Assembly (NCBI GenBank): GCA_023634235.1
Contig: JAMKCF010000002.1
Span: forward strand, 6,252,722 to 6,316,721
Direction: 5' to 3'
Source: Pisaster brevispinus
Taxonomy: Eukaryota; Echinodermata; Asteroidea; Forcipulatida; Asteriidae
Length of the DNA stretch: 64,000 nucleotides
The position numbers were made by a program, and so were the translations under genes. Under the pieces are notes generated by a model. That model saw only the letters and a list, made by a program, of their open reading frames with translations. It was not told the DNA's origin and did not search any database. Positions 4,925-40,236 of this stretch are shown one piece after another. How positions within the stretch are numbered: the first letter of the stretch is position 1; each line of letters begins with the position of its first letter.

Positions 4925-5900
4925 TTGTCATACGAGCAATTATTACGTAATTCAAGTCCTCGAGGGTTTTAAGCAGCTCTATGAAATTGGGCCCTGGGCA
5001 CGGGTTGACGTAGTTTTCACAGTGTTCCGTATTTCCCAACACGCGGCGTAACGAATCACGTTCGGAAGTAGTTTTGATCCTGAACGCCGTGTAAAAGTTT
5101 AGCCAGAGGTCCATGGAGGTAAATTATGACGTTTTTTTTTCATAGGTCTTGTCTTCAAGCGGAAAGTTAGCAGACATATACATATATATTTTTTGATAAT
5201 ATTAGGAGATTAATATGCAGTTGAATTCATATAGTCCTGCAAAATCCCGTTAAAATTTTTTTTTTTTATTTTTTTTCGTAATATTCCGCATCGAACTAAG
5301 TGCTTTTTGATTACAGCAATCTTTTACTTTAAGTGGCGACACTTTTTGTACAGTGTGGATGCCGGGTATTTAGTTCCCCTAGACTTAAACAGTTTTTTTT
5401 TTAAAGCAGACATTATTTACTCAATGAAACTCAATTTTTAACACAAAACTTCATGGCTGCGTACTGGGTTGAGCTATTTTTGAAGTCAGTTACCATGTGC
5501 TACTGTCTAATGAACATATTAGGCACACGCACTCGTTTATACGCTCATCATGTCATACGAATAGACTTCACACAAAAAAACTTACGAAGAGGGTGTGACA
5601 CCAGTGCAATCTGTGTAGTAAATAAGAGAAGGGGCACGGGGAATACGTGGTGGACAGCGAACACCGAGGAACGACGCGGATCGATCTCGTGTGCGAAAGC
5701 GCGACTTAGGAAGGCACTCTGTCTGGACACCTGCCGGTGTCCAGTTAAGAGACCCAGCTGTTGTCCAATAGTCTGGCTCCTTTCGGCCTCAGAGGAGTAG
5801 TTTTTGAGAGTGTGACTTCATATTCAAGGGGTCTTTAGAGGCTTTTTCCTCTGTGCTGTAGTTTAATACGAAGGTGAAAGGTCGCCAAGGCTAAGGTTGA
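4925..5900. other. Intergenic DNA
   Basis: No supported gene. Near 4965-4990 is the dispersed motif AGCAGCTCTATGAAATTGGG, also at about 2101. At 5727-5751 a short perfect hairpin (CTGGACACC / GGTGTCCAG) occurs. Open frames here lack splice context, homology or a partner frame. Confidence 0.4.
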
Positions 5901-5989
5901 ACTGTATCTCTATTGAGTAAATGTTTCATGTACACAGTTTTATTGACAAGAAAACTTGCACTTTAAAACTCTTGAAATGACAACCTTTA

Positions 5990-6305
5990 GAAATTGACGT
6001 CATACTAAGAGCGGAAGTGAAAGGAAACTGGTCTGGTACTTCAGGAAGCAATCTGACAGTGCAACGTACTGAGGCTAATATACACGATGTCCGTGAACTA
6101 TACTGGAGAGTTTGGCTTAATTAACCTCCATTCGTAACACACCGCTTTATCCAAACCAGTGGTAGAGTAAGTCACGCCCTACAATCAGTGACTTTAACAC
6201 GTATGTCTGATTGGCTGCTCATCGATTGTCAATCAAACCCCAAAGTAGATTGCTGTTCCCTTCAATGGAATGCAACAGTATTTAATGGCTCTCTACCAGC
6301 AGCAG
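5990..6305 (+). promoter_or_regulatory. Promoter region of collagen/C1q gene 1
   Basis: Collinear and similar to 46049-46380 upstream of the paralogue. Conserved elements are a CRE/ATF-type TGACGTCA (5995-6002), GTACTTCAGGAAGCAAT (about 6038), and a 23-bp identical block containing CTCATCGATTGTCAATC (about 6215-6237). A TATA-like TATTTAA sits at 6279-6285, about 30 bp before the inferred start. An inverted CCAAT box (ATTGG, 6210-6214) is present here but mutated in the paralogue. Activity is inferred from conservation and position only. Confidence 0.6.
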
Positions 6306-6307
6306 TG

Positions 6308-6379
6308 TTCATAACAACATTGCATCATATCAGAAAAGAGGAACCGAGAAGGCTTGGACTACAATAACACAACACCAAG
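6308..6379 (+). other. 5'-UTR exon 1 of collagen/C1q gene 1
   Basis: An inferred non-coding first exon. It ends CAACACCAAG|GTAAAT at 6379 and matches the corresponding exon ending at 46451 (shared CATCATATCAGAAAAGAGGA). The start is placed about 30 bp downstream of TATTTAA. It would splice to the acceptor at 10448-10449 directly before the ATG. Confidence 0.55.
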
Positions 6380-9300
6380 GTAAATGTTTCTCGTTACACT
6401 GCTTGACCAGGCTTTGGTTTCTAGATGCATGCAGTGCATATTACGGTAGCCTATTATATGGTGGTTGGTGATGAATTAAATTCGACAAAAGAGCGGCGTT
6501 TAGCGGAAACTTTTGATTTAAGTTCGACACTTTCGTGTAGCACGGCAAGCTCTGCCGTGCTGCAAGGTAGTTGTATGACGTGGTGACAAACGTCGCGCTC
6601 TTGCCGCGTCGAATCAAATTGAATTATGATGGGTGATGCTTTTCGCGAATAAGCATGCGTAAAGTTTTTGACAACTTGTTATGCGTATTTTCTAACATTG
6701 TAAACGTTCTCCTTGTTGGTACCGTAGCTGGGAGTTTTCCGGGATGGGATGAGAAACAATTTGTGACTGGAACAAACATAATTTTAAAATTTTATAATTA
6801 AGCTGACCGGTTTTGTTTGACAATCTTTAAAACACTCCATTTAGCGTATACAGGTTATCAATGATATTCTTTGCAACGTCTTGTTCAATCAGTCAACAAT
6901 TTGTGTTTACTCTGACAACAATCTGTCAAAATCTACGAAAACTGTCGAGGGTAAAATGAAAAGAAAACTAAAAAACAAACAGATAAATGGTTAGATCGCG
7001 TTGTTTGACTTGGCCCCGGTATTATTATAGTGAGGTTGACCATGTATCTTATATATCCCCCAGATCCCCACGGATCGCACGAGAAAGTGACTGGTCGTTC
7101 GTTTCACCCTTACGGAAGCTCACGTTAGACTAGACTCGCATTGGACACATAAATAGCAAACTGGCTGATAACCAACATTACAGTGAGCGCATTTATGCAA
7201 AGTTCATTCACTTTTTCGGCTGGTCTTATTACAGAAGTGCAATAAGTACATGAGAAGAAAAAAAAATCAAAAGTCCCGGTTTGCCAATTAACCCTGAAAA
7301 AATACTGTTTCGCCCGGGCGGTTTACAATTTTTACAGGGCTTTGTTCTACTTTGCCCAGGCGATTGTTGTTGCAAAGATCCATACTCCTTGCCACTGACT
7401 GGAAAGTCAGGGGAAATAACTATAGGGAGAAGTGAAATCGTGCATGTGGCCGCGTGCAAGCAAGTCAAGAGAAAAAAATAGTTGTACAATAAACCCCAGA
7501 GCAGTTTTTCTGTACAAACGAAACAGTTGTACAACTACAAATATATAATAAATTGGGTTCAACTTTAGGTTAACTACTCAACGGTTGAGTCAGAGTGGAG
7601 GCACCCGATACACGCAACCTTAAAGGAACACGTTGCCTTCGTGTTGGGCAGTTTGGGCTATAAAAAGCGTTTGCTATGAAATGAATATGGTTGGAAAGAT
7701 GTTTTAAAAGTAGAATACAATGATCCACATGAATATGTCCTAGTAATGTGTGGTTTTTGTTAACGTTTGTGACAAAGAACGGTCCGCCATTTTGTAGAGT
7801 CAAAATTTTGACTCCACTAAATGGCGGACATGCTCCGCTAATCTTATTTCCAGTCGCGGCTGTTGAACTACGACTGAGCAAATAATATTAATATCACGGC
7901 GGTCCTCTTGTACGCGTTGTATATCCAGGTTATGGATTGTAGCGGGCCAACTTAACGCTAACGCTTTGTGTGATGCAAGAAGGTCTGGTACTCATTGCTG
8001 TTTGTGTACGTGTATCGTGATCATCACATCGGTATTGTTACATGAGTCTGATCGTGAATTCGTCGTGTTTTTCTCGCCTCTGTGTTGCAAAATTGTATAT
8101 TAGTATAATTGTCAGTATAAAGTGGAGCTGAAGAATGGACCCAATGTTAGTCTCAAGAAATTGTCCTTACCCGGATTGACGAGGTTTCTTCTTTTTGGAT
8201 GTTTCTTTATCCATTTTGACACCTCTATGCATGTACGGTGTGGGTGTTTACATGTTGCGAAGCGAGATACAGAATGGTATATTACCTGGTGTTCATCTGA
8301 TTGGTTTACCAGGCCACACTGGCTACGGCACCAACCTAACGACTGTTCGTCGCGCATTTTGTCCATTACATGGACGGTGGTATTTACGGCTGGAAATACA
8401 TATACGTTTCGCGGGGCAGATGTCGGGGTCAGAGGTCATTGTTTGGTTTTTTTAATCACCAATCACTAATTATAACACATTAAAAGCATTTATTGCATGA
8501 ACAACTCTTAGTAAGGATATTGAACACTTCCAAACAGTAATATTTCATGATATTTTAAGGCAACGTGTTCCTTTAACAAGTTAAAATAAAATTCATCGAC
8601 AATTCTGTAATGTTTCACACAAATTAACATAGCTGAACCAACTTAAATATCTACTTAACCATCACAAACAGGGTTTTCCTGGGGTCAACCCAAAAGTTTT
8701 GAATAACAAATAGTTATTTCAAAACACTTTGTGGAAGACTGAGCCATTTGCGGCTCGGGTATTTAAACTCCGAGTGTAAGTCAGTTGGACCAATTCCTTT
8801 GCAATTTTGACGCAGGTTCCGTGTCATACTGAACCGGATGAAGAATAATGGTGAACAAAACAGAGATTTCGGGCCCCGAGGCACCCGGACCCAGTTACAT
8901 TCTGACTCGGAAGCTTTCAGAGTTCGTCAAAAAGAAAACCAAGCACAAGTCATCTGAATTGATTAGGGACATGTCGATAACACTTCGGAATTACTTGCAA
9001 TAGGCCATAGAGGGCGATATAGTTGGCAGCAGACTTTTAGGTAAATCAATTGTTCTCAACAATGAGTGCTAGCTCAGGATGCATTCACACTGAACATTTA
9101 CAAGGTATGTCTGCCAGCTCATTACCTCAAAGTCACGAGACAATTGAATAATATAATAATAGCAACATAACATTGTGTTATTTCTGAGAAAAAAAACTAC
9201 TCCACGAATCTTAACACAATAATGCTATTATCTAAAGTCAAACAAAATAGACTACAACTATTTGTTATAAGTTTTTAAAATGTTGATGGCTTCGGCTCAA

Positions 9301-28134: not shown

Positions 28135-28516
28135 TGTTGTGTTAATGCTCCTCAGAACATTATCAGTACATACGATTCACTTAGTACACAGACTCCCGAA
28201 AGACGATTTGTAGTTAACTTCTTCTGCAAGCAGTCTATTTATTTCTACATAAGGCCTTTCATACAGTAGTGCACCCTAAGGTGCCAAAGATAGGAATACC
28301 TACAATTACTTTCCCCATCCTACTTTTATTTCCATTCCGATCAGATGTCATCATATCTAGAATGAGGCAAAAACCACATCCTTGAGTCCGAGTGGTCCCT
28401 AACCACAGACCCCCACACCCTCCTCAGTATTCTAGGAATACCCATTACTACCACAATGACCTTCTCACAACCAAGCTGTGGGTGAAAGTTCGGACATGCC
28501 TAATAATGACATCACA
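28135..28516 (-). repeat. 3' LTR of the Gmr1-type element
   Basis: 382 bp starting TG and ending CA in the minus sense. It aligns with 39880-40236 along nearly its whole length (GCTCCTCAGAACATTATCAG, CAATTACTTTCCCCATCC, CATGCCTAATAATGACATCA). It has an extra stretch of about 25 bp near 28365 not present in the 5' LTR. Confidence 0.9.
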
Positions 28517-28530
28517 TGCCCCCTCCCCTG
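28517..28530 (-). promoter_or_regulatory. Polypurine tract next to the 3' LTR
   Basis: Minus sense AGGGGAGGGGGCA lies immediately before the 3' LTR start TGTGATG. This is where retrotransposons prime plus-strand DNA synthesis. Confidence 0.75.
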
Positions 28531-28864
28531 GAGAAGACTGTGCCAGTCTTGCAAATATTGAAACTTGCAACCCAATCATACTACTTTTGCAAAACTTTGT
28601 ACTAACTTAAATTACATGAATTAATAGTGTTCAAAAACTGTAGTGAAGACAATCATCCTGGAAAAATGTTTATCCTGCACATCATCATTCATGTCCACTG
28701 AGCTGACTTGGGTGTAGTAAGTTATATAAGGCATTTAAGAACACGTCCAATTGCATATCATATATCAATAATAAAAATACTAACTAAAAAGTATAAGAAA
28801 TAATTACAAGTAGATAAGGAGTAAAAATGGCAATTAAACGAGTATATAAACTACTAATAAACGT

Positions 28865-30330
28865 TGTTAGTCTAAATACTTCATAATGACTGGTGGAAGA
28901 CAATACACTATAGATTGAACTGTAAGTTTTAGATTGTTGCATACAGCATCAATATCATTAAATGAAAAATATAGAAAGACACGGTTGATTTTTGCACGGC
29001 TAAGACCATCTGCATTGCCATTAGAAATGCCCTTGTTTGTACTGCACCGTGAATGTGAATTCCTGCAGCATCATGGACCATCGCAATAGTCTACTGTTAC
29101 TTGTTCGGAAAGTATCTAGCCATTTTAAGGCTTTATGATCCGTGAGCACCAGAAAGTCTTGACCATAGAGGTAGTATTTCAATTTGTGCACAGCCCACAC
29201 ATTAGCAAAACATTCCTTTTCTGGTACAGACTAGTTTTGTTCACGCGCCAACATTTTCCTACTAAGGTATGCAATAGGATGCTCGACATCTTCGTCATCA
29301 GTCTGGGCGAGTACAGCACCCAACCCACAATTTAATGCATCCGTTTGTAGGAGAAATTTCTTAGAAAAATCTGGTGCACGGAGGAGTGGTGGGTTTATGA
29401 GTTTGCTTTTCAAAACAGTAAATGCTCGTTCACATGTCTTACTCTAACTCATTGTGTTGGAGGCACTTTTCTTGGTGAGTTCTACCAATGGGGATGCTAT
29501 GGTGGCATATTTGGGGTACAAATGTTCTGTAGTGCCCTGACAGGCCTAGAAATGCCCTGACTTGCTTCTTTGTTAATGGCCTAGGAAAGTTTGCTACTGC
29601 ATCAAGCTTTTCCGTCATTGGTTGTATCACACCTTGACCAATGGTATGCCCCAAATTGAGACTTGAGATTTAGCTACTTTGCATTTTAAACCTGCCTGTG
29701 CCAATTTGCTTAACACATCTTTCAAATGAACCATGTGGTCTGCCCATGTTTCACTGTAAATACATATGTCATCAATGTATGCTTGAGCATAACCTTGACA
29801 ACTAGACAGAACCTGATCCATCAATCTCTGGAATGTACTGCTGCTGTTTTGCATGCCAAAGGGCAGTACATTATAACAAAACTGACCAAAGGGCGTAATG
29901 AACGCTGATTTCTCCTTTTGTAGCTTGGTCAAGAGGGACCCGATAGAAACCTTTTGTGATGTCCAGCGTAGATATGTACTTTGCTGCAGTAACATCATCT
30001 AATATTTCATCAATTCTAGGCATCACATATGGATCAAATTCCGTAATTTTGTTCAGTGTTCTAAAATCAGTTACTATTCTGATTTTATCAAGCGACTTTT
30101 ATAGGGCAATGATCGGCGAAGCATATGAACTAGTTACGGGTTCAATGATACCCATGTCTAACATACTCTGTAGTTCATCTTAAACTTTTTGTTCGCAAGG
30201 CATGAGGTGTTACGATAAGCTCTATGCCGTATGGGTTGTGTAATTTTTGTTTTGATTTCATGCTGCACTAAATGTGTTCTCCCAGGCACATCGGAAAACA
30301 CTTTACTGAATGACTGCATCAAGGTACTGA
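28865..30330 (-). pseudogene. Reverse transcriptase and RNase H of the Gmr1-type element
   Basis: RT start near 30330 (VFSDVPGRT), then ITPFGQFCYNVLPFGMQN, and the catalytic YIDDICIYS (about 29760-29785; YIDD form of the YxDD box). The thumb-connection has FLGLSGHYR (about 29520). RNase H has LLQTDALNCGLGAVL (about 29320), then LTDHKALKWL (about 29130) and NGNADGLSR (about 29000). The reading frame is split into at least four pieces by stops and shifts. It lies downstream of integrase in the transcript, contrary to the usual gypsy order. Confidence 0.88.
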
Positions 30331-30449
30331 TCTCACTAGATTGGGCGGGTGTCAGTGAATCTGACCAAAACACGTCTTCCCTAATTTGAGTTTGATGGAA
30401 GGTTAGGCCTATATATATGCTTGCATCTATCTCATCTACCGGAGTTACT

Positions 30450-31700
30450 ACATCATCATCATTATCATTAACATAAATGATTCTACATTTGCAATAATGT
30501 AATGGCATTCAGCCACGCGCTGCTCATGATCTTTAGCATACCACGGCTTCATCATATTCACGTGAATGGTCCAATTGGATTTTCTTTTGTTTGGTAAGGT
30601 CACTTCATAATTTACTGCATTTATTTTACGTGTAATGACGTGAGGACCCTGCCATTTGCTTTCAAGTTTAGACATACCTAGAGGTAGGAAGAGCAGTACT
30701 TTATCTCCCGGGTCAAATGTACGGGGAGAAGAATTGCAATCATAATTCTGCTTCATTTTGTCCTGGACCTTGACCATATTGTCCACGGCTTTACCCATTA
30801 GTGTGTCCATATGACGTCCTATATCTATCATGTTCTGAACCACGTCTGGGGCCAACTCATCGTCAGTAATCCACTTCTCCTTGATCAGAGTCAATGGGCC
30901 TCTTATTTTTCTCCCATACAACAATTCAAAGGGTGAGTAGCCCGTACCTTGGCTTGGCACTTGGCACTCTGTATGCAAACAGAAATGCTGGAATATACTC
31001 ATCCCATTTCTGAATTTGTTTCTCGTTGAGTGTTTTCATCATAATATTTAATGTCCCATGGAAACGTTCGGTCAACCCATTTGTTTGTGGGTGATATGGT
31101 GTGGTGGAGATTTGAGTTATTCCTAGAGAGTTGCACAGAGATGACATTATCTTGGACATAAAGTTCGTTCCCTGGTCATGCACAATCTCTTTAGGCAACC
31201 CCACCCTTGTGAAAACTTCAATCAACGCATTCGCTACTGTATCGGCTCTAATATTGGACAATGGAATAGCCTCTGGATATCGCGTTGCATAATCACAAAG
31301 TGTCAGCAAGTATTTGTTTCTTTTTGCTGACCTTACAAAAGGACCTACAATGTCGATCCCTATTCTCTTAAATGGTGTCTTAATGATTGGCAGAGGGCAT
31401 AAAGGATGTTTACGTGGGGTTCTTCCCTTGTCTATAAACTGACACACTGGGCAAGTCCTACAGTAATCTGCCACCTGTTTAAATATTCCCGGCAATTAAA
31501 ATTGACTGAGCACCCTGTCCTTGGTTTTGGATACACCTAAGTGTCCTGCTATTGGTATGTCATGTGCTATTTTCAGTACCTCTACCCGACACTTGTCAGG
31601 AAGCAATATTTGGTGTACAATGTCATTTTGTAATGCCACCCCATGCTTGGTACGAGTCCTTGCCTTGCGTTCCCACTGACGCATGAGCAAATTATCCTTC
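30450..31700 (-). pseudogene. Integrase of the Gmr1-type element
   Basis: H2C2 zinc finger: AHDIPIAGHLG (about 31570), then CRTCPVCQF (about 31450), with an in-frame TAA between them at 31496-31498. Catalytic core: IGIDIVGPF (first Asp, about 31350), VHDQGTNFM (second Asp, about 31175) and YHPQTNGLTERFHG (Glu, about 31070). The C-terminal GPF/Y-type module reads KWQGPHVITRKI ... NYEVTLP ... HVNMMKPWY (about 30545-30660). The three catalytic residues are kept, but the frame is interrupted. Confidence 0.9.
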
Positions 31701-32159
31701 TCATAAAAACACACTCTGTGTTTGTCTATCTCACCTTCCGAAACTAATCTATCCCTAATTCCATGTAACGTATCATCTGACTTCTGCAACTGTATCAAAG
31801 TCTGTCTATCTACAATCAGCCAGTTTGTATAGCTGTCATGTTCTACTGTATCATTATTTGTAGTCTTGGCCACCCCTACATCTTCAATGTTTTGGCTATG
31901 GTCAGAAACATTGTTATCGGTGTCATCCTGATTGAGTTCATTCTGTGTGAACAACCTGTGCAGACTGTCTGCTGCTACCTCATCATTGCTGATTTGGAAT
32001 GTATGCCCATTCGTGGCCTTGTCCTCATGAGAACTATCTGGGGTGCCTAACTCTTTGATGTTACGGATATGCGTCTGGAATTCTTTTTTCCCCACTACAT
32101 ACTCTTCTAACTCAGTTTTAGCCTGTGCCCGTGTTAAGATGCACATTTCTTTTGCTAGA

Positions 32160-32480
32160 ATTTCACCACAAGTCTTGTCAAGATCGTGTCCCAACAGAAC
32201 ATCTCGTTGGAGTCCATCTATGGCTGCTACTAAAACTTGACCGGACACTACTGCACATTGCAGATTTACTAAAGCTAAAGGTACGGTAACTTGACCACCT
32301 ATGCCTCTTACTGTGATAAGCCTACTTGGCAACTAACATGCTGACGGTACCAGACTGGCTTTCACTGCAGCCTGTGTACATGCCGAGTCTCGCAAGATTC
32401 GGACTTGTTTACCTTCAAGCGTTCCCAGTAACAGACACTTTTCTAACTGCATTTCTGCTGAGTCAAACTGTACTTGGTCT
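32160..32480 (-). pseudogene. Retroviral-type aspartic protease region
   Basis: Minus-strand VRILRDSACTQAAVK (about 32400) holds the active-site triad as DSA instead of D-S/T-G; RDVLLGHDL (about 32190) is the second conserved LLG.D segment. A TAG-type stop separates the two at about 32335. The order gag, then protease, then integrase is clear. Loss of the Gly in the triad is probably decay. Confidence 0.65.
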
Positions 32481-32539
32481 GCCCCAGATTCTACAGTAGT
32501 TTTACACCTGAGAATTGCTTTAGAATTTACACCCTTATT

Positions 32540-33665
32540 TTTTGGTTTATTTTGGTCAGAGTTACTTTTCTCTGTTTTACGCGAAACACCCGAGCCTGTC
32601 TGGCTACTACCACTACTATTACTACTGCCCTCTGTGTCGTCAGCAGCTCACTATCATAAGTGGTACGAAGCTGTCCTAGGTTATAATTCGCTTTACCTGA
32701 CTCATGTGAAATCGAACTGTCTGAACAATCGGACGAATTATGTGAACTTCGACCACTTGAGTAAGGTCTGTTTGGTGGTTGCATTCTTATTTCTATCAGA
32801 ACGCCACTGGGATTTAGAAATTTCATTCTTTCTCCAAAATTCTGAACCCCCTCTGTTTGCTACATACGTGTCTGCCATGTTTGCCAACTCGCGCCAACTT
32901 TGGGGTTTCTTGTCCCGTAAATGGATTTTGAGATCATACGGCAATTTACTCATTGCCTGATCCATGACCATAAGGTCGATGATTTTTGAGGGGTCACGTC
33001 TGTCAATGTCGGCAAATTTTAGCCAGTTGTTGTACTGGTGAGAAAAATCAGTGACCCAGTCACGTACAGTTTCTGTGCCTTTTCTGACACATTTACGGAA
33101 ATTCGTTCGGTATGTCTCTGCATTTATCTCTTTAAACGGTCTAAAATCGCATTTTTAAGCACGTCATAATATTTGGCTTCTCCAACAGTAAGTGCGGCAT
33201 AGGCCTCACGGGCTTTACCAGTGAGCTCAGGCACCAGCCTAGCTGACCATTGTACGGAGGGCCAGCCATTCATTTGAGCTAGATTTTCGAATGCTTTGAG
33301 ATAAATATCAATGTCATCTGATTCTCTCAATTAGGTACCCGAATCTTGTCCAAACCACAGTTTCCGTGGGACATTGTAGCCGTGGTGAATTGTGTGTGTG
33401 CCTGCGCTGGCGCTTGTGCTTGTGCCATTTCCATGTGTTTCATCTGAATTCTCTCATGTGATTGTATTTTGAGATATTCAATCCACATGTCTTTAGGGAG
33501 GCCCTCGGGAATCCCTGGAGGTATATTAGTGTGTGCTGGCCATTGACCAGGTTCAGTACCATCAAAACTGGCTCCCAACTCTTGTTGGTCACCGGGGCTT
33601 TCACTGCTTAAATTGTCATCCATTGTTGGTATTACAGATTTTGTGGCCGATCGAAGCTGTGGCAT
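32540..33665 (-). pseudogene. Gag of the Gmr1-type element with SCAN-like capsid domain
   Basis: The N-terminus starts near 33665 with a Pro/Gln/Ala-rich leader. Next is a capsid segment DDIDIYLKAFENLAQMNGWP, then WSARLVPELTGKAREAYAAL. After a frameshift at about 33125 comes ETYRTNFRKCVRKG, then VRDWVTDF ... NNWLKFADID ... SKIIDLMVMDQAMSKLPYDL. The last part resembles the vertebrate SCAN domain (KEQILELLVLEQFLTILP), which is known to derive from Gmr1-like gag. A Ser/Asn-rich linker follows to about 32540. Confidence 0.8.
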
Positions 33666-34251
33666 ACTGTGATCATGAACTCTGCATTAGTATGGATCTA
33701 CTAAATTACTGAACAAAAAGCTTATCTACTAAATTACTTTAACAAAAAACTGACTTCATACTCAATTAATGTAGGCCCCTAGGCAATGGATACGTGTTCT
33801 CCTTACCCTACACAACGTACTCACCACACCCTTGCTGTAGTCACGATCAAAGCATGCCCGACGTCTTCCTTCATGGAAAATCCACACTGTATCGGCACAA
33901 ACTGCTGCACTGGGTTGGTACTCGAACTCGCATTAGCATCGGGAACTGCTCACCAGGAACCGGCCCAAGATGTCTCTGACGTCCTCTCACAAGGTAGTTC
34001 AGTTGAGCGACCCTCTCACGTCTTTGGTACATTCAGTTGTTGAACTATAGCATGTTCAGTTCTGCTACATCTGTTGGTGCTGCAACTACCCGGCCTCTGT
34101 AACGGAATAACTTCATCAAAGTTCCTTTAGTGGTAGTGCCGTCCGCCACATCTCGTTTGGACTTTGGAAATCCTTTGTAAGGTTTTTACCCGTCACAGTT
34201 CTTAACACGTCTTATGGCCGCCATCAGACTCCATGGCTCCACTTTGTGTTT

Positions 34252-34263
34252 CCGCTGCCACCA
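34252..34263 (-). promoter_or_regulatory. Primer-binding site, complementary to a tRNA-Leu 3' end
   Basis: Directly inside the 5' LTR end (TTAACACAACA) the minus strand reads TGGTGGCAGCGG. Its complement CCGCTGCCACCA equals the acceptor end plus CCA of leucine tRNAs that begin GGTAGCG. The match was made from memory of the tRNA sequence. Confidence 0.6.
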
Positions 34264-34274
34264 TGTTGTGTTAA
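34264..34274 (-). repeat. Inner fragment of the split 5' LTR
   Basis: TGTTGTGTTAA on the plus strand equals the end of the 3' LTR at 28135-28145. The last four bases, TTAA, are one copy of the target duplication made by the transposon that follows. Confidence 0.85.
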
Positions 34275-34659
34275 AGATGGACTACAACGAAAACTCACAC
34301 ATTAAATTTACTATCGAAACTTGTTTATGTTGTGTTCAGGTAACAATTTATTGTTGTGGTCATGTTTTTCTCTAAATAATTTTTTTGCAATTTGACCGAT
34401 AAAATTAGACCTCGATTCTTCGATTTTGAAATTTACCGCCCTGTACTGGTTCCCGGCAAAGATCCATTGAAAACCACATTGAAATCCACGATATAGTACC
34501 AGCGGACTTGTAAACCAGCGAAAAGTGATGACGTACTACCCATGAGCAACCGAGAGTAAACAAAAGACGCAATGTTATTCCGTGTGTATTATGCATGCGT
34601 TTTCCTGCAGAGGCATGAAGTTTTTACGAAGCTTTTTTTCTAGTTTATCAGCTGCAATA

Positions 34660-36895
34660 ATGCCGACTTCATGTGTTGCTGGTGGATGCACTAGAAATAG
34701 TTCTAAGAATCCAGAGATTCGTTTTGTTCAATTTCCGCGGGATCCTGCGATATCAAAGGAATGGGTGAAGTTCGTGAATAATACACGAAAGGATTTCACC
34801 TTCTCGGCAAGAAGTAGGCCTTTGATTTGTTCAGCACATTTTTCAGAAGACTGTATTGAACCTTCAATAAATTCAAGTGCTTTGAAAAAATCACTGGGTT
34901 TGACAACAAAGTTTCGTTTGAAGCCTGGATCGATCCCCACGAAAGCGCCAAACATCGAGAGAATTCGTGTATCTACATGTACCACCACCAGGCTTACTGC
35001 TACTACGTCGGCCGAGTCATCGGCCTCCGCCGCCGGGTCTGCCGTGGCCGCAGAGTCAGGTGCAGAGTCGCAAAAAGGGCTCTTGAAACGTAACGTTGGT
35101 GGCTTCACTGGGACAGCATTCCAGAAGAGAGAGACAGAGAAGCTGGGTAAGTTCTTGTTAATAAAAAACATCCGAAATGATCATTAAAGCTGCTTTTGAG
35201 ATTTCTATCTCCATGATTTATTTAGGCCCAATAAGAAAAAAAAGAGGAAACAATCTCTACTCTTTTCATGTGGTCAATCATCATGTCAAATGACAATGGC
35301 CGCCGCTGAGCATGCTCTGAATCTGACCTGTATGATCTGCATTAGCTACATAGTGGCCTTGAGTGATGCCACAGTAAGTAGCTGATGATGGCCGTGCTTT
35401 GGCATGTTCATGCTCTGGTTTACTTTCTGGCATGTTGATTATTCATGCTCAATCATGTGTGAATCCTATTTAATCCATTTTGAAATTTGACTGTTCCATA
35501 CAGTTCCATTTTCTTTGTCTTGCTGACAAGTATTTAACTTAGTCCATGCTGGACAATTGTTTTTTGCCAAAGCTGTCTGTGAATCCTGAGTGTATGCCTA
35601 AGAATTGTTCACTCTTTTTTTTTGAAGGCACAGCTCCAAAATATGTTCATGCTCCCATCCCTGGTCAAAATTTGTCGTATCATTTTTGTTTATAGGCTCG
35701 GGATGGCCAACCACATTGAGTGTTTACTTTATTTGAATTTGTCAAGTTAGGCCAGTTCTTTTTCAGCACTGATATTTTATTTATTTATTTGTTTTTTATT
35801 TTCATATTCTTTTGTATAGAATCTACTCAGCAGCTCTACACTTCAATGAGAATGCAGTGACTAAGCCAGAACAGGAAAGGGAGACCTAAGATTCTCAGTC
35901 GTTCACCCTCGATCAAAACAAGACAGCGGAGGTTACACAGCCCAGAAGCTACTTGTCAATATACAGCACTTTCAGTAAGTATTATGTATTTTGTACAGTT
36001 TCAAACCTGCTAATAAACCCCCAGACATGCAAGTTTGCAGCGGATCAGATGATTTCCTCATTTTTAGTTTCTCAGCTGTCCATTGAAAACTGAAAAACAG
36101 TGTACAAATTCTTACTGTTCATGGTACTTTCCTCGCTTTTTGAAAAACTGTTCAGGTGCAGATTGGGGGGGGGGGAGTTTGGGGGTTCAACACCCCCCCC
36201 CAGGTCGGACTTAAAAAAATAACAGGTTTTCTATCAGACATATAAGAAAAAGAAAAACCTGCCCCACCCCCCCCCCCCCCCCCCCCGAACCCAGAACAAA
36301 TCCAGGATTCGCCCCTTGCTGTTGTTGCATGCACAACTCCTTTTGTTCTTGTATTGTGTTGAATCATGTACGGTTCTTTTCAAAACCACCCCAACTCACA
36401 GAGAGATTGTCATTACATGGTGTTACCTCAAACCTTACTAGATTGTATTTCTGCCATGCAAATGTTCAAATCCTACTTAATGATTCTATTTATTTTATTT
36501 TATTTTTCATAAAAACAGATTATGCAAAGAAAATCATGCATAAGGCAGTGGTTCTTTGTCAGCAGGGTGACAAGACATCAAAACAACTGCATCCGCAGCT
36601 GATGTGTAAACCTGGGCCATTGACATCAACCTTCACAAGGCCGGAAAAAGATGCAGCAGTTGCAGGTTTTGTGTCAAGGTTTGCAAAAATAACCCAACCT
36701 GTTGGCAGGCAGCAAGCAACACCAGGCCAAGAGGAGCCACCAGGTGGATCACAAACCGTTGTTGGTCCAGGGAAAACAACCACAGGGGTGCAAGTGAAAG
36801 GAAAGAGAAATAAGGAAGTCGAGCAACATGTGCCCCCAAAACGTACTAAGAGAAAAACAGCTAAAACAAATGATTTGGTACATGTGTATGCTTAA
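34660..36895 (+). CDS. THAP-domain protein encoded by the TTAA transposon (two exons, 287 aa)
   Basis: The ATG at 34660 begins MPTSCVAGGC, the exact N-terminus expected for a THAP domain. The C2CH zinc ligands are in CVAGGC and LICSAHF; EWVKF supplies the conserved Trp and FRLKPGSIPT the closing Pro motif (domain about 1-95). An Ala/Ser-rich linker follows. Exon 1 ends ...AAGCTGG|GTAAGT at 35146. Exon 2, 36519-36895 after acceptor CATAAAAACAG, restores a Asp codon in phase and codes a Lys/Arg-rich tail ending VHVYA stop. The exons total 864 bp, a whole number of codons, with no stop. THAP domains bind specific DNA, often transposon ends. No catalytic domain is present. A further weak exon-like segment lies at 35820-35860. 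Confidence 0.8.
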
Positions 36896-37382
36896 GTGGG
36901 TTTTTTTTAGGGGGGGGGGGGCATTGCCAGGGTAGTAGAATCAACTTTGTTTGAAGACAGAATGACATGGCCTGTACACATTATTGTTGTTATATTCTTG
37001 TATTTTACAATTTATTGCTCCCAAAACGTACTAAGAGAAAAACAGCTATAAACAAATGATTTGGTACATGTGTATGCTTAGGTGTTTTTTTTTAAGGGGG
37101 GGGGGGGCATTGCCAGGGTAGTAGAATCAACTTTGTTTGAAGACAGAATGACATGGCCTGTACACATTATTGTTGTTCTATTCTTGTATTTTACAATTTA
37201 TTGCTCCCAAAACGTACTAAGAGAAAAACAGCTAAAACAAATGATTTGGTACATGTGTATGCTTAGGTGGGTTTTTTTAAGGAGGGGGGGGGGGGCCATT
37301 GCCAGGGTAGTAGAATCAACTTTGTTTGAAGACAGAATGACATGGCCTGCACACATTATTGTTGTTCTATTCTTGTATTTTA
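36836..37382 (+). repeat. Three tandem units of about 185 bp duplicating the THAP gene's 3' end
   Basis: CCAAAACGTACTAAGAGAAA starts units at about 36836, 37019 and 37207. Each contains AATGATTTGGTACATGTGTA, a G run of variable length, GCATTGCCAGGGTAGTAGAA and TACACATTATTGTTGTT. The first unit includes the last codons and stop of the THAP gene; the others carry copies of that coding end without the rest. Confidence 0.92.
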
Positions 37383-37828
37383 GTTCGGTTTAACCAAGTA
37401 TCTACATGATTTTGATTCAGTTGTTTTCATCATCAAGAGGCAACTTTTTTAATATTGATATTTTAACCTCAAAAATAAACCCTATTGTTGGTTGCAAATA
37501 CATACATATTTTGTGTTGTCATTTATTACAAAAGTACATGTACTAAGGTTTTTTTAAATTTCAGTTCTTGGCATCTTTCTGCCACACCAAGTTTGTAATG
37601 TTGTTACCACGTTACTATAGTGTATTGTTGGCAACATAGAACAAGTTTATTTCACATTAGTGTTAAATTAATCAACTTTAACCCCCCCTCTAAAAAGACA
37701 CAAAATGAAATAATACACACGTAAATTATTATGGTTTATGAAAGCACAAAATAATTTGTGACTCCCTCCAGATTATTATAATTAGGGAAAATGTTACGAA
37801 TTAAAACAATAAACCAAAGCAAAGTCGC

Positions 37829-39531
37829 CTAATCCAATGGTGAATACGAAAATCCTTTATACTGTCCATCAGGGTTTGGGAACGTCCTTCGTATTGCTGC
37901 CATTACACATGATGGCAGTGGCACCCGGTTGAAGCGACCAAGATAGCCCCAACACCACCTCACCACTTGCCGATATGCAACATGGCGATATTTTCTATAA
38001 AACAAAACGAAAAAACATACAAAATTATTAAAACAAGATTTGTGGTTTGCATGGTGGAGTGTTTATATTGTTTGCTAACACCACGTGAACCTAAATTGAT
38101 TTAAAACTATAACCATGCCAAAAAGGCAATCATGATCCAAAGTAAACAGCTACATATGTAATGCATGAACAATAAGATATACATTTGTGTAGATGCACAT
38201 GGGTTAAACGAAGTTCATATTCAGATGTGCAGTTACTCTGAAGTAAACAGCGATGCTCATTCTGGTCAATCAAAAGTACATGTAATCTGCTTCGTATGTA
38301 GAACATTCAAAACTGACAGCTCTACAATATTAATTTAAATTGATGGTACATTGGCTTTGTACATGATACAGCCAACACTCAAATCACTTACTGGTCAAGC
38401 GTTCCTTCGACTGCATCTCTGCCATAGTATGCTCTGTATTGAAGGTATGCTGTTGCAAGCACTCCTGGGGGGAGGCAGATTGCATCAAACCAATCATGGA
38501 TGGTAAGGCACTGGTTCGTATCATCTATGTTGATGTCCAGCTGCCACATCATGCTCTCTGTTTTCTCAACTTCTTTGCAACATGTATAGTTTGGTAGCAA
38601 GGGCTGAAGGACACAATGGCCACACAAACACCTAGTATTACCACCAAAAAAAACAAGTTTGGAAAATATGGTTTTAGTAACTTTGTCACCGGGGTTGCAC
38701 TTCTTGAAAATTGATCTTGAAATACATCCCCCCATGAACTGATCAAGGACAGGTACCCGGTACATCTTGAAGGAATACATTTTTCCATAGACAGATCAAA
38801 TATGCAGGGAGTACAACCTTTAGTTTGATTTGAAGGGAAAGAAAAAAAATAGTCAAAATGCTCAAAGCTTGATGGTAAAACTAAAAGATCATGATTTTAT
38901 TTGAATTTTGAGCAGTGATTCCCATCCCATCACCATCATGTCTTCATAAATACTGGCTAATTTTGCCAATAAGTCATAAAACGCAAGACAGTAATTAACC
39001 CCCACCCCCACATTTCTACTGACTGTGCATGTGTTGTTCACATGTACATGTACATGTTGTATGTACATTTAAAGGGTATTCATTGTACACGTACATACAC
39101 TAGCACCGGTATTATGTACATGAATGGAGGTACATGTAGATAATAAACCTACGGTCTCCATCATGTTCCTTCATGTTTTTGTCAAGTATGGCCCACAATA
39201 AGCTTAGCCTACATCTATTTTTGACAGCAGAAATGAACTGATCAAACGAGGCATCAATCAGTATTTTATTCATGAATCATTTTGTGGGCTTACCAGTCTG
39301 TGTTTAGCCGTCGATCATCAGGTTTGCCTCGTCGTCTTCGGCCTGACGATCACCGTCACCGGGCTGGAACAGCAGGCACCGCAAGTGGCTCGAACCGGTA
39401 TGGCTTAGCGCCACGTTCTTCGTCTTCGCCTTCTCTCTCGTCTGGTGAGCTCCCCTCATCGCTAGAGCTGCCATCACTGCCTCTTCCTCATATATACTGT
39501 GGTCTTCCCAATAATCGCTGCTATCGGACAT
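37829..39531 (-). pseudogene. P2X7 C-terminal (zinc-binding ballast) domain-like protein
   Basis: Three exons in phase: 39294-39531, 38392-38631 and 37829-37994. Exon 1 starts MSDSSDYWED, ends RLNTDW, and carries the PYRFEPLA motif typical of such proteins. It contains a frameshift and two TGA codons before RLNTDW, so this copy is probably inactive. Exon 2 is intact: CLCGHC, NYTCCKEVE, NQCLTIHDWFDAICLPPGVL, TAYLQYRAYYG. Exon 3 is intact: YRHVAYRQVVRWCWGYLGRF, VPLPSCVMAAIRRTFPNP, ending FSYSPLD. Cys spacing (C.CG.C, CC, C, C, WCW, SC) matches the cytosolic zinc-binding domain at the end of vertebrate P2X7 receptors; no channel part is present. Known stand-alone relatives are numerous in fish, cnidarians and echinoderms. 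Here it sits inside a transposon. Confidence 0.85.
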
Positions 39532-39879
39532 TTTTCGCTGTTTTTCGGTCGAAAATAGTTGTACCAAAATATAACCTAGCTTGTCTGCTGTACTCCGCAT
39601 TGCATTGTACGGTAAAATGCACGCACACGTAACACACGATCGACTCGAGATATAAAGCGTCATGGGTAGTACGTCACACACAAAGTATGAATTATTCATG
39701 AGTTAAGGGCTTTTGCTGAAACTGAGTTTTTCTGGGTCGTAGAACGCCGATCAATTTTGTGTTTTTTTGCATGAAGGAACACATTTTATTGAATAATAAT
39801 AATATATTAGTAATCATTATACACTTCTCGAACGAAAACAGCAAAACAGCCTTTATCATTATTCCGTTTTAGTCCATCT

Positions 39880-40236
39880 TTAATGCTCCTCAGAACATTA
39901 TCAGTACAAAACTATTCACTTAGTACAAAGACTCCTGAAAGACGATTTGTAGTTAACTTCTTCTGCAAGCAGTCTATTTAGTTATACATAACGCTTTTCA
40001 TACAGTAGTGCACCCTTATAGGTGCCCAAGATAGGAATACCTACAATTACTTTCCCCATCCCACTTTTATTTCCATTCCGATCATTAAGATGTCATCATA
40101 CCTAGAATGATGTGGTCCCTAACCATATACCCCCACACCCTCCTCAGTATTCTAGGAAAACCCATTACTACCACAATGACCTTCTCATAACCAGGCTGTG
40201 GGTGAAAGTTCGGACATGCCTAATAATGACATCACA
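39880..40236 (-). repeat. Outer fragment of the split 5' LTR
   Basis: Starts with the second TTAA (39880-39883) and continues TGCTCCTCAGAACATT exactly as the 3' LTR does at 28142. It ends ATCACA, followed by CCCTT. Joining it to 34264-34270 recreates one LTR equivalent to 28135-28516, the strongest proof of nesting. Confidence 0.9.

Follow-up and report, generated by a model that had tools for sequence, protein, structure and literature searches.

What kind of mobile element carries a THAP gene together with a gene for the zinc-cysteine domain of the P2X7 cytosolic tail (P2RX7_C), and yet shows no DDE transposase? The question is raised by a TTAA-flanked element at positions 34275–39879 of a 64,000-nucleotide stretch, here called the window, from the sea star Pisaster brevispinus (assembly GCA_023634235.1, contig JAMKCF010000002.1, positions 6,252,722 to 6,316,721 of the forward strand). 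Here we show that this is almost certainly an internally deleted, non-autonomous cut-and-paste transposon of Kolobok, Kol0 type, in which the 'THAP gene' joins the two ends of a transposase gene and the second gene is KolX. Longer relatives in the same genome carry the missing DDE core at the deletion junction, and nine further near full-length copies share the ends of the window copy.

Borders and insertion site

The element is a complete DNA transposon with TTAA on both sides, inserted within a long terminal repeat (LTR).

34271..34274, unstranded: left TTAA target-site duplication; a single TTAA in the empty partner LTR
34275..39879, unstranded: DNA transposon of 5605 bp, assigned to non-autonomous Kolobok (Kol0-type) on its ends, target-site duplication, empty site and nine more near full-length copies
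34275..34292, plus strand: left terminal inverted repeat, perfect over its first 10 bp
34529..34545, plus strand: left subterminal inverted repeat, 17 bp
39660..39676, minus strand: right subterminal inverted repeat, 17 bp
39862..39879, minus strand: right terminal inverted repeat, perfect over its last 10 bp
39880..39883, unstranded: right TTAA target-site duplication

The termini are AG...CT, and the terminal inverted repeat, AGATGGACTA, is perfect over 10 bp within 22-nucleotide arms (TTAA counted) that are 91% complementary. The 17-bp subterminal inverted repeat is perfect in the window copy and lies at the same position in all ten aligned copies, with at most 2 mismatches. When the flanks are fused at one TTAA they match the partner LTR in the window (28135–28516) without interruption, at 339 of 389 positions (87%), which reveals the site as it was before insertion. 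What the left flank has in common with the partner is just 7 nucleotides and the TTAA, because the match, taken as the LTR, begins there. Exact TTAA borders inside an LTR with an intact partner, and terminal and subterminal inverted repeats, were what the first-pass annotation of this DNA had described, and both descriptions are borne out.

A transposase gene without its core

The plus-strand gene comprises the following parts.

34660..35146, plus strand: transposase exon with THAP domain, 162 residues (PF05485, E 1.9e-13)
35666..35667, unstranded: internal deletion junction, DDE core exons (3–4 kb in loci L035 and L023) gone
35820..35974, plus strand: exon for the C-terminal tail of the transposase (LAALHYNEN...), with a broken frame in the window copy and limits set by eye
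36519..36895, plus strand: last tail exon of the transposase, uninterrupted in the window copy; 7 of the 9 readable copies have a stop or a frameshift
36864..37424, unstranded: 186-bp minisatellite

Two longer relatives reveal what is missing. L035, ~9.2 kb long, is flanked by TTAA on either side and has a single mismatch in its left repeat; of L023 (G000:C1:2958000-2967500) one end, the right, was seen. Both carry 3–4 kb of extra sequence at the junction. The left edge of the gap comes from L035, the match to which stops at 35666, and the right edge from L023, where it resumes at 35668. This junction is identical in 10 of 10 aligned copies and recurs, with no more than one mismatch, at six of eight further loci (L027, L029, L031, L032, L034 and L039), the other two being L035 and L023 themselves.

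Among 38 stretches searched at E ≤ 1e-3, core pieces were found in L023 (6 of 6) and L035 (5 of 6) and in none of the other 36, whereas the transposase tail piece was found in 20 of the 38, the window copy among them. None of the six core pieces thus matches in the window copy, which upholds the first-pass statement that no DDE transposase is visible there; of the diverged transposase that it had left to be sought in the interior, a core was found at this threshold in the longer relatives and not in the window copy.

The identity of the missing part is given by a composite transposase assembled from segments of L023 and L035. It matched 83 proteins at E ≤ 1e-3 (best 5.7e-82) through parts other than about 55 residues that stand in the wrong frame (L023 past its frame break); the core piece in the correct frame is 100% identical in L035 and 96% in L023. 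Many of these proteins, which come from molluscs, fish, ticks, a crinoid and a hemichordate, carry PF05485 and/or PF20700 (Mutator-like transposase). The alignment motifs, named by eye, are GxDxRxDSPGHSAK, TDRH, DVWH, a zinc-finger region and ExxHxxxNHFAPK, then the LAALHYNEN tail. The window THAP gene aligns to both ends of Kolobok-like transposases, without the middle; judged by that alignment, it is what remains of a Kolobok transposase gene after deletion of the DDE core, and the element is not the DDE-less kind of transposon for which it could be taken. A Pfam search with the transposase tail gave no match.

The 287-residue THAP protein originally read from this gene results from splicing exon 1 straight to the last exon, bypassing the frame-broken middle exon. 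Its THAP domain is confirmed, but the product is open in the window copy alone among eight readable copies (L010 and L013 were unreadable); L012 yields a THAP-plus-tail product of 182 residues. The minisatellite adjoins the transposase tail, and its copy number differs among insertions.

The KolX gene

The second gene lies on the minus strand, convergent with the THAP gene, and encodes the P2RX7_C domain in three exons.

37829..37994, minus strand: KolX (P2RX7_C) exon 3 (PF20478, E 3.7e-11)
38392..38631, minus strand: KolX exon 2, zinc-cysteine motif CLCGHC...CC
39294..39531, minus strand: KolX exon 1, frame disrupted by the loss of 25 nucleotides and, separately, of one base

Read by itself, the exon-3 frame is enough for a PF20478 match (E 3.7e-11). 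A composite KolX protein, typed from several copies and read across the frame break, matches PF20478 at E 1.3e-17 and P2X7 structures at E 8.6e-11, together with 13 database proteins at E ≤ 1e-3, the best-named of which are from a sea star, oysters and sea urchins. With PF05485 and PF20478 matches on opposing strands and CLCGHC...CC in exon 2, the convergent pair of THAP and P2X7-C-domain genes with a zinc-cysteine signature is as first described.

The KolX frame is broken in the window copy and in 10 of 10 aligned copies. Twenty-five nucleotides of exon 1 are absent from all ten and present in L034, L035 and L039, the last of which has exon 1 open throughout; an additional single-C loss in this exon is seen in the window copy, L011, L012, L014 and L017. 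The last transposase exon is also interrupted, in seven of nine readable copies (L010 unreadable), so that breaks are found in both genes.

Copies of the window family

A terminal word, TTAAAGATGGACTA, was counted 52 times across the 549.7-Mb assembly, and its reversed control 6 times. Counted by hand, 28 of the 52 occurrences form 14 inverted pairs; because the word includes TTAA, its presence on both sides follows from the way in which the pairs were selected. Nine near full-length copies of 5.2–6.0 kb, with differing flanks, accompany the window copy, and the ten aligned copies differ by 0.7–2.9% pairwise substitutions (mean 2.0%). Repeated full-length copies with the same ends at different loci, the pattern that was expected to support the element, are therefore present within this genome. 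Three of the 14 pairs (L018-L020) are shorter forms. Another of the 14, an 11-kb pair of ends on contig C13, considered as a larger autonomous copy, is the same compact element with ~5.2 kb of other sequence inside. There are 24 unpaired ends, of which 20 were examined; at three of these 20 (L033, L036 and L041) no further match to the element was found.

Across the ten copies, the THAP exon as a whole has a nonsynonymous/synonymous ratio of 1.0 and its THAP domain one of 0.66; the ratio is 0.63 in the tail, and KolX exons 2 and 3 give 0.69 and 0.39. These values rest on few changes, and ratios of 0.39–1.0 therefore do not show selection.

Genome-wide pairing and a second family

A PF20478 profile search of the assembly, with 91 of 91 candidates scored, gave 74 exon matches, a number that is not a gene count because one gene may give two matches. 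PF05485 gave at least 150 matches, with 150 of 313 candidates scored. A scored THAP match lies within 15 kb of 43 of the 74 P2RX7_C matches, and the nearest is convergent in all 43. About 0.6 such pairings would be expected from mean density, an expectation to be read with the caveats that copies of the same family are not independent events and that contig C1 is denser than the mean. The remaining 31 have no match within 15 kb among the 150 THAP candidates scored.

The distances between THAP and KolX fall into 28 compact pairs (2.4–3.4 kb) and 15 longer ones (4.3–14.3 kb). Every compact pair has one of two TTAA-flanked ends 1.5–2.1 kb from its KolX exon: nine have that of the window family (A), and 19 that of a second family (B), TTAAAGAGGGACTC, which was read from a copy on contig C9 and occurs 72 times against 4 for its control. 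Overall, 34 of the 74 P2RX7_C matches fall within such an end and 40 do not. For this genome, the search for P2RX7_C genes with a convergent THAP neighbour and shared ends that the first-pass annotation proposed thus comes out in its favour.

The two families have slight DNA similarity. In the C9 copy of family B (L044, L045), protein identity to family A or the longer relatives is 54% for the THAP exon, 73% for KolX exon 3, and 58% and 40% for the tail pieces, and no DDE core was found between THAP and KolX. TAA occurs within 17 of the 19 family B THAP matches, and the first KolX exon seems frame-broken in the one copy examined (C9). As the core is still present in close relatives of family A, its deletions in A and B would most simply be independent.

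Classification

Several features place the window element in Kolobok. A 4-bp TTAA target-site duplication is found in the window copy, with its empty site, and in L035; the AG...CT ends fit the 5'-RR...YY-3' termini; and the THAP domain of the transposase is present, both by profile (PF05485, E 1.9e-13) and by alignment. The DDD/E transposase with a C/DxxH motif is found in the longer L023 and L035, both defective, and not in the window copy, which has no core piece and is therefore a non-autonomous derivative rather than an autonomous member.

Two other groups were considered. KolobokP has long terminal direct repeats of ~450 or 660 bp, and none of this kind appears between the ends among 20 of the 28 repeat families listed, largest first. 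PiggyBac, which is not known to have a THAP transposase, is ruled out by the AG...CT ends and the THAP-DDE relatives. In the available part of Kojima & Bao (2022; PMC9587614), Kolobok termini are given as 5'-RR/YY-3' and those of piggyBac are unlike them. There, Kol0 elements are defined by a transposase together with KolX, a protein with the P2X7 ballast fold; the second gene of the window element, KolX with this ballast domain, has that property. With Kol0 (Kolobok-1_XT type) the window family shares TTAA, the 5'-RR/YY-3' ends, the THAP-DDE transposase (in the longer relatives) and KolX, and the window copy differs in having no DDE core and broken frames. The available part of that paper holds no description of the window family. 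The XKol elements and T2-MITEs (miniature inverted-repeat transposable elements) of Xenopus (PMC6004289) are likewise Kolobok, with TTAA, AG ends and both autonomous and non-autonomous forms, but their ends differ and 'KolX' is absent from the main text. Nanor-like and stand-alone ballast proteins (Rump et al. 2020, PMC7016195) have the zinc-cysteine domain of KolX; the available text of that study treats the domain, found across animals, as an ancient animal gene module rather than transposon cargo, and contains 'transpos' 0 times.

Origin of the element and alternative explanations

With the DDE core gone and KolX frame-broken, the window element is a non-autonomous derivative. What we base this on was observed directly: the ends with their target-site duplication, the empty site, the further copies, the junction left by the deletion, the nature of the missing part and the broken frames. 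The ancestor would have been a longer element, resembling the ~9.2-kb defective L035, with two convergent genes encoding a THAP-DDE transposase and KolX, an accessory protein sharing the P2X7 ballast fold. A single deletion would have cut out the DDE core, bringing the THAP exon region up against the C-terminal tail exons, after which the shortened form, retaining both ends and the subterminal repeats, would have spread at TTAA sites. We propose that the compact copies are moved in trans, presumably by transposase from a full-length relative that binds their terminal and subterminal repeats and inserts them at TTAA. We infer both this mobilization and the order of events. The P-element derivative KP and maize Ds are likewise internally deleted elements that have kept their ends and lost the catalytic core, KP retaining the N-terminal DNA-binding part; the same core loss is seen here, in a different superfamily, with the second gene, KolX, also retained.

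Several observations weigh against this interpretation. No intact autonomous copy was found among the copies examined. L035 is without the exon bearing the last acidic motif and has DVWR instead of DVWH; in L023 the frame of the core is interrupted, and the THAP exon is unmatched in the stretch examined. L023 also keeps the core and nonetheless has the 25-nucleotide KolX deletion of the compact copies, so that the history is no simple ladder; exchange between copies is likely from this combination. The core counts hold for the 38 stretches alone, and a Pfam search of the joined core exons, whose query included wrong-frame residues of the composite, gave no transposase match. A protein database search with THAP, spacer and tail returned 3,135 candidates, with none at E ≤ 0.01. 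Finally, the Kol0 assignment is inferred from KolX and the motifs rather than from a transposase tree.

Of the other readings, the one that fares best, although still improbable, builds on an independent loss of the core in each of at least two families (A and B) with THAP, tail, KolX and ends kept, and on the excess of compact over long pairs (28 against 15): the THAP-tail protein or KolX could itself favour compact copies. Before the genes decayed, the advantage might have lain, for instance, in more effective complex assembly in cis or in holding down full-length copies by repression.

Somewhat less probable still is that the truncated THAP-tail protein of 287 residues represses transposition, so that compact copies regulate the family. 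The KP product represses P-element transposition, and in-frame products are possible in the window copy and, at 182 residues, in L012, with a THAP domain ratio of 0.66. Yet the 287-residue product is open in one of eight readable copies, the last exon is interrupted in seven of nine, the whole of exon 1 has a ratio of 1.0, and 17 of 19 THAP matches in family B contain TAA.

A transposon of a DDE-less kind, in which a THAP protein and KolX suffice to carry out or direct transposition, would account for the absence of a DDE core from the compact copies examined and for the THAP–tail–KolX layout of two distant families. We consider it very unlikely, as the related L035 and L023 have the core at the junction, the second half of the THAP gene is a transposase tail, KolX is broken in all ten aligned copies and the last exon in seven of nine, and the ratios of 0.39–1.0 show no clear selection.

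The capture of host THAP and P2X7-like gene fragments by an unrelated TTAA element, conceivable in that P2RX7_C and THAP are both known in host proteins, is refuted by the longer relatives and scarcely credible given the 43 of 74 convergent pairings, the Kolobok-like homology of the tail and the Kol0 layout of transposase and KolX in the available part of PMC9587614.

Significance

That a THAP-type TTAA transposon carries a P2X7-C gene, which the first-pass annotation offered as an explanation for the spread of such genes, stands as to carriage but is not new, the link between this type of Kolobok and P2X7 being already in print (2022, PMC9587614). Its suggested bearing on how P2X7 gained the domain is likewise right in kind and already stated: in the available part of their paper, Kojima & Bao conclude that P2X7 arose by fusion with KolX, the likely domain source. 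What the internally deleted Kolobok described here adds is one more family, clearly non-autonomous, an explanation for its missing transposase and a genome-wide count, which together lend independent one-genome support to what has been published, namely that P2X7-C-like genes owe their spread to Kolobok elements, in which they are the KolX genes. Animal gene models of 'stand-alone THAP' or 'stand-alone P2X7-C' proteins call for caution, as they may be pieces of deleted Kolobok elements.

Further observations

Contig C1 (34.4 Mb, 6.25% of the assembly) holds 33 of the 74 P2RX7_C matches and 36 of the 150 scored THAP matches (binomial p ~1.6e-20 and ~2.2e-12, with matches treated as independent), together with 12 of the 15 long pairs. 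This contig may be a place where copies accumulate, low recombination being one possible cause. The best P2RX7_C match in the genome also lies on C1 (G000:C1:18750637-18750912; 90.3 bits), in an open frame of 170 residues with no scored THAP match within 15 kb, and is possibly a host or domesticated gene. L023 resembles a mosaic of two element lineages.

At L043 (G000:C6:16768500-16777500), positions 5218–6326 and 6837–8951 contain a KolX-like gene (DPDWCICGNCREMP...) convergent with a frame that, by eye, resembles a Kolobok transposase tail, and with a 24-residue core fragment of 66.7% identity, below the cutoff in the 38-stretch test. The P2RX7_C match of this locus has equal score at C1 and C19.

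The LTR into which the window element is inserted belongs to a minus-strand LTR retroelement at 28135–40236, with a SCAN-like (gag) region, integrase and reverse transcriptase in this order in separate reading frames between its LTRs, an arrangement similar to that of Gmr1-like elements.

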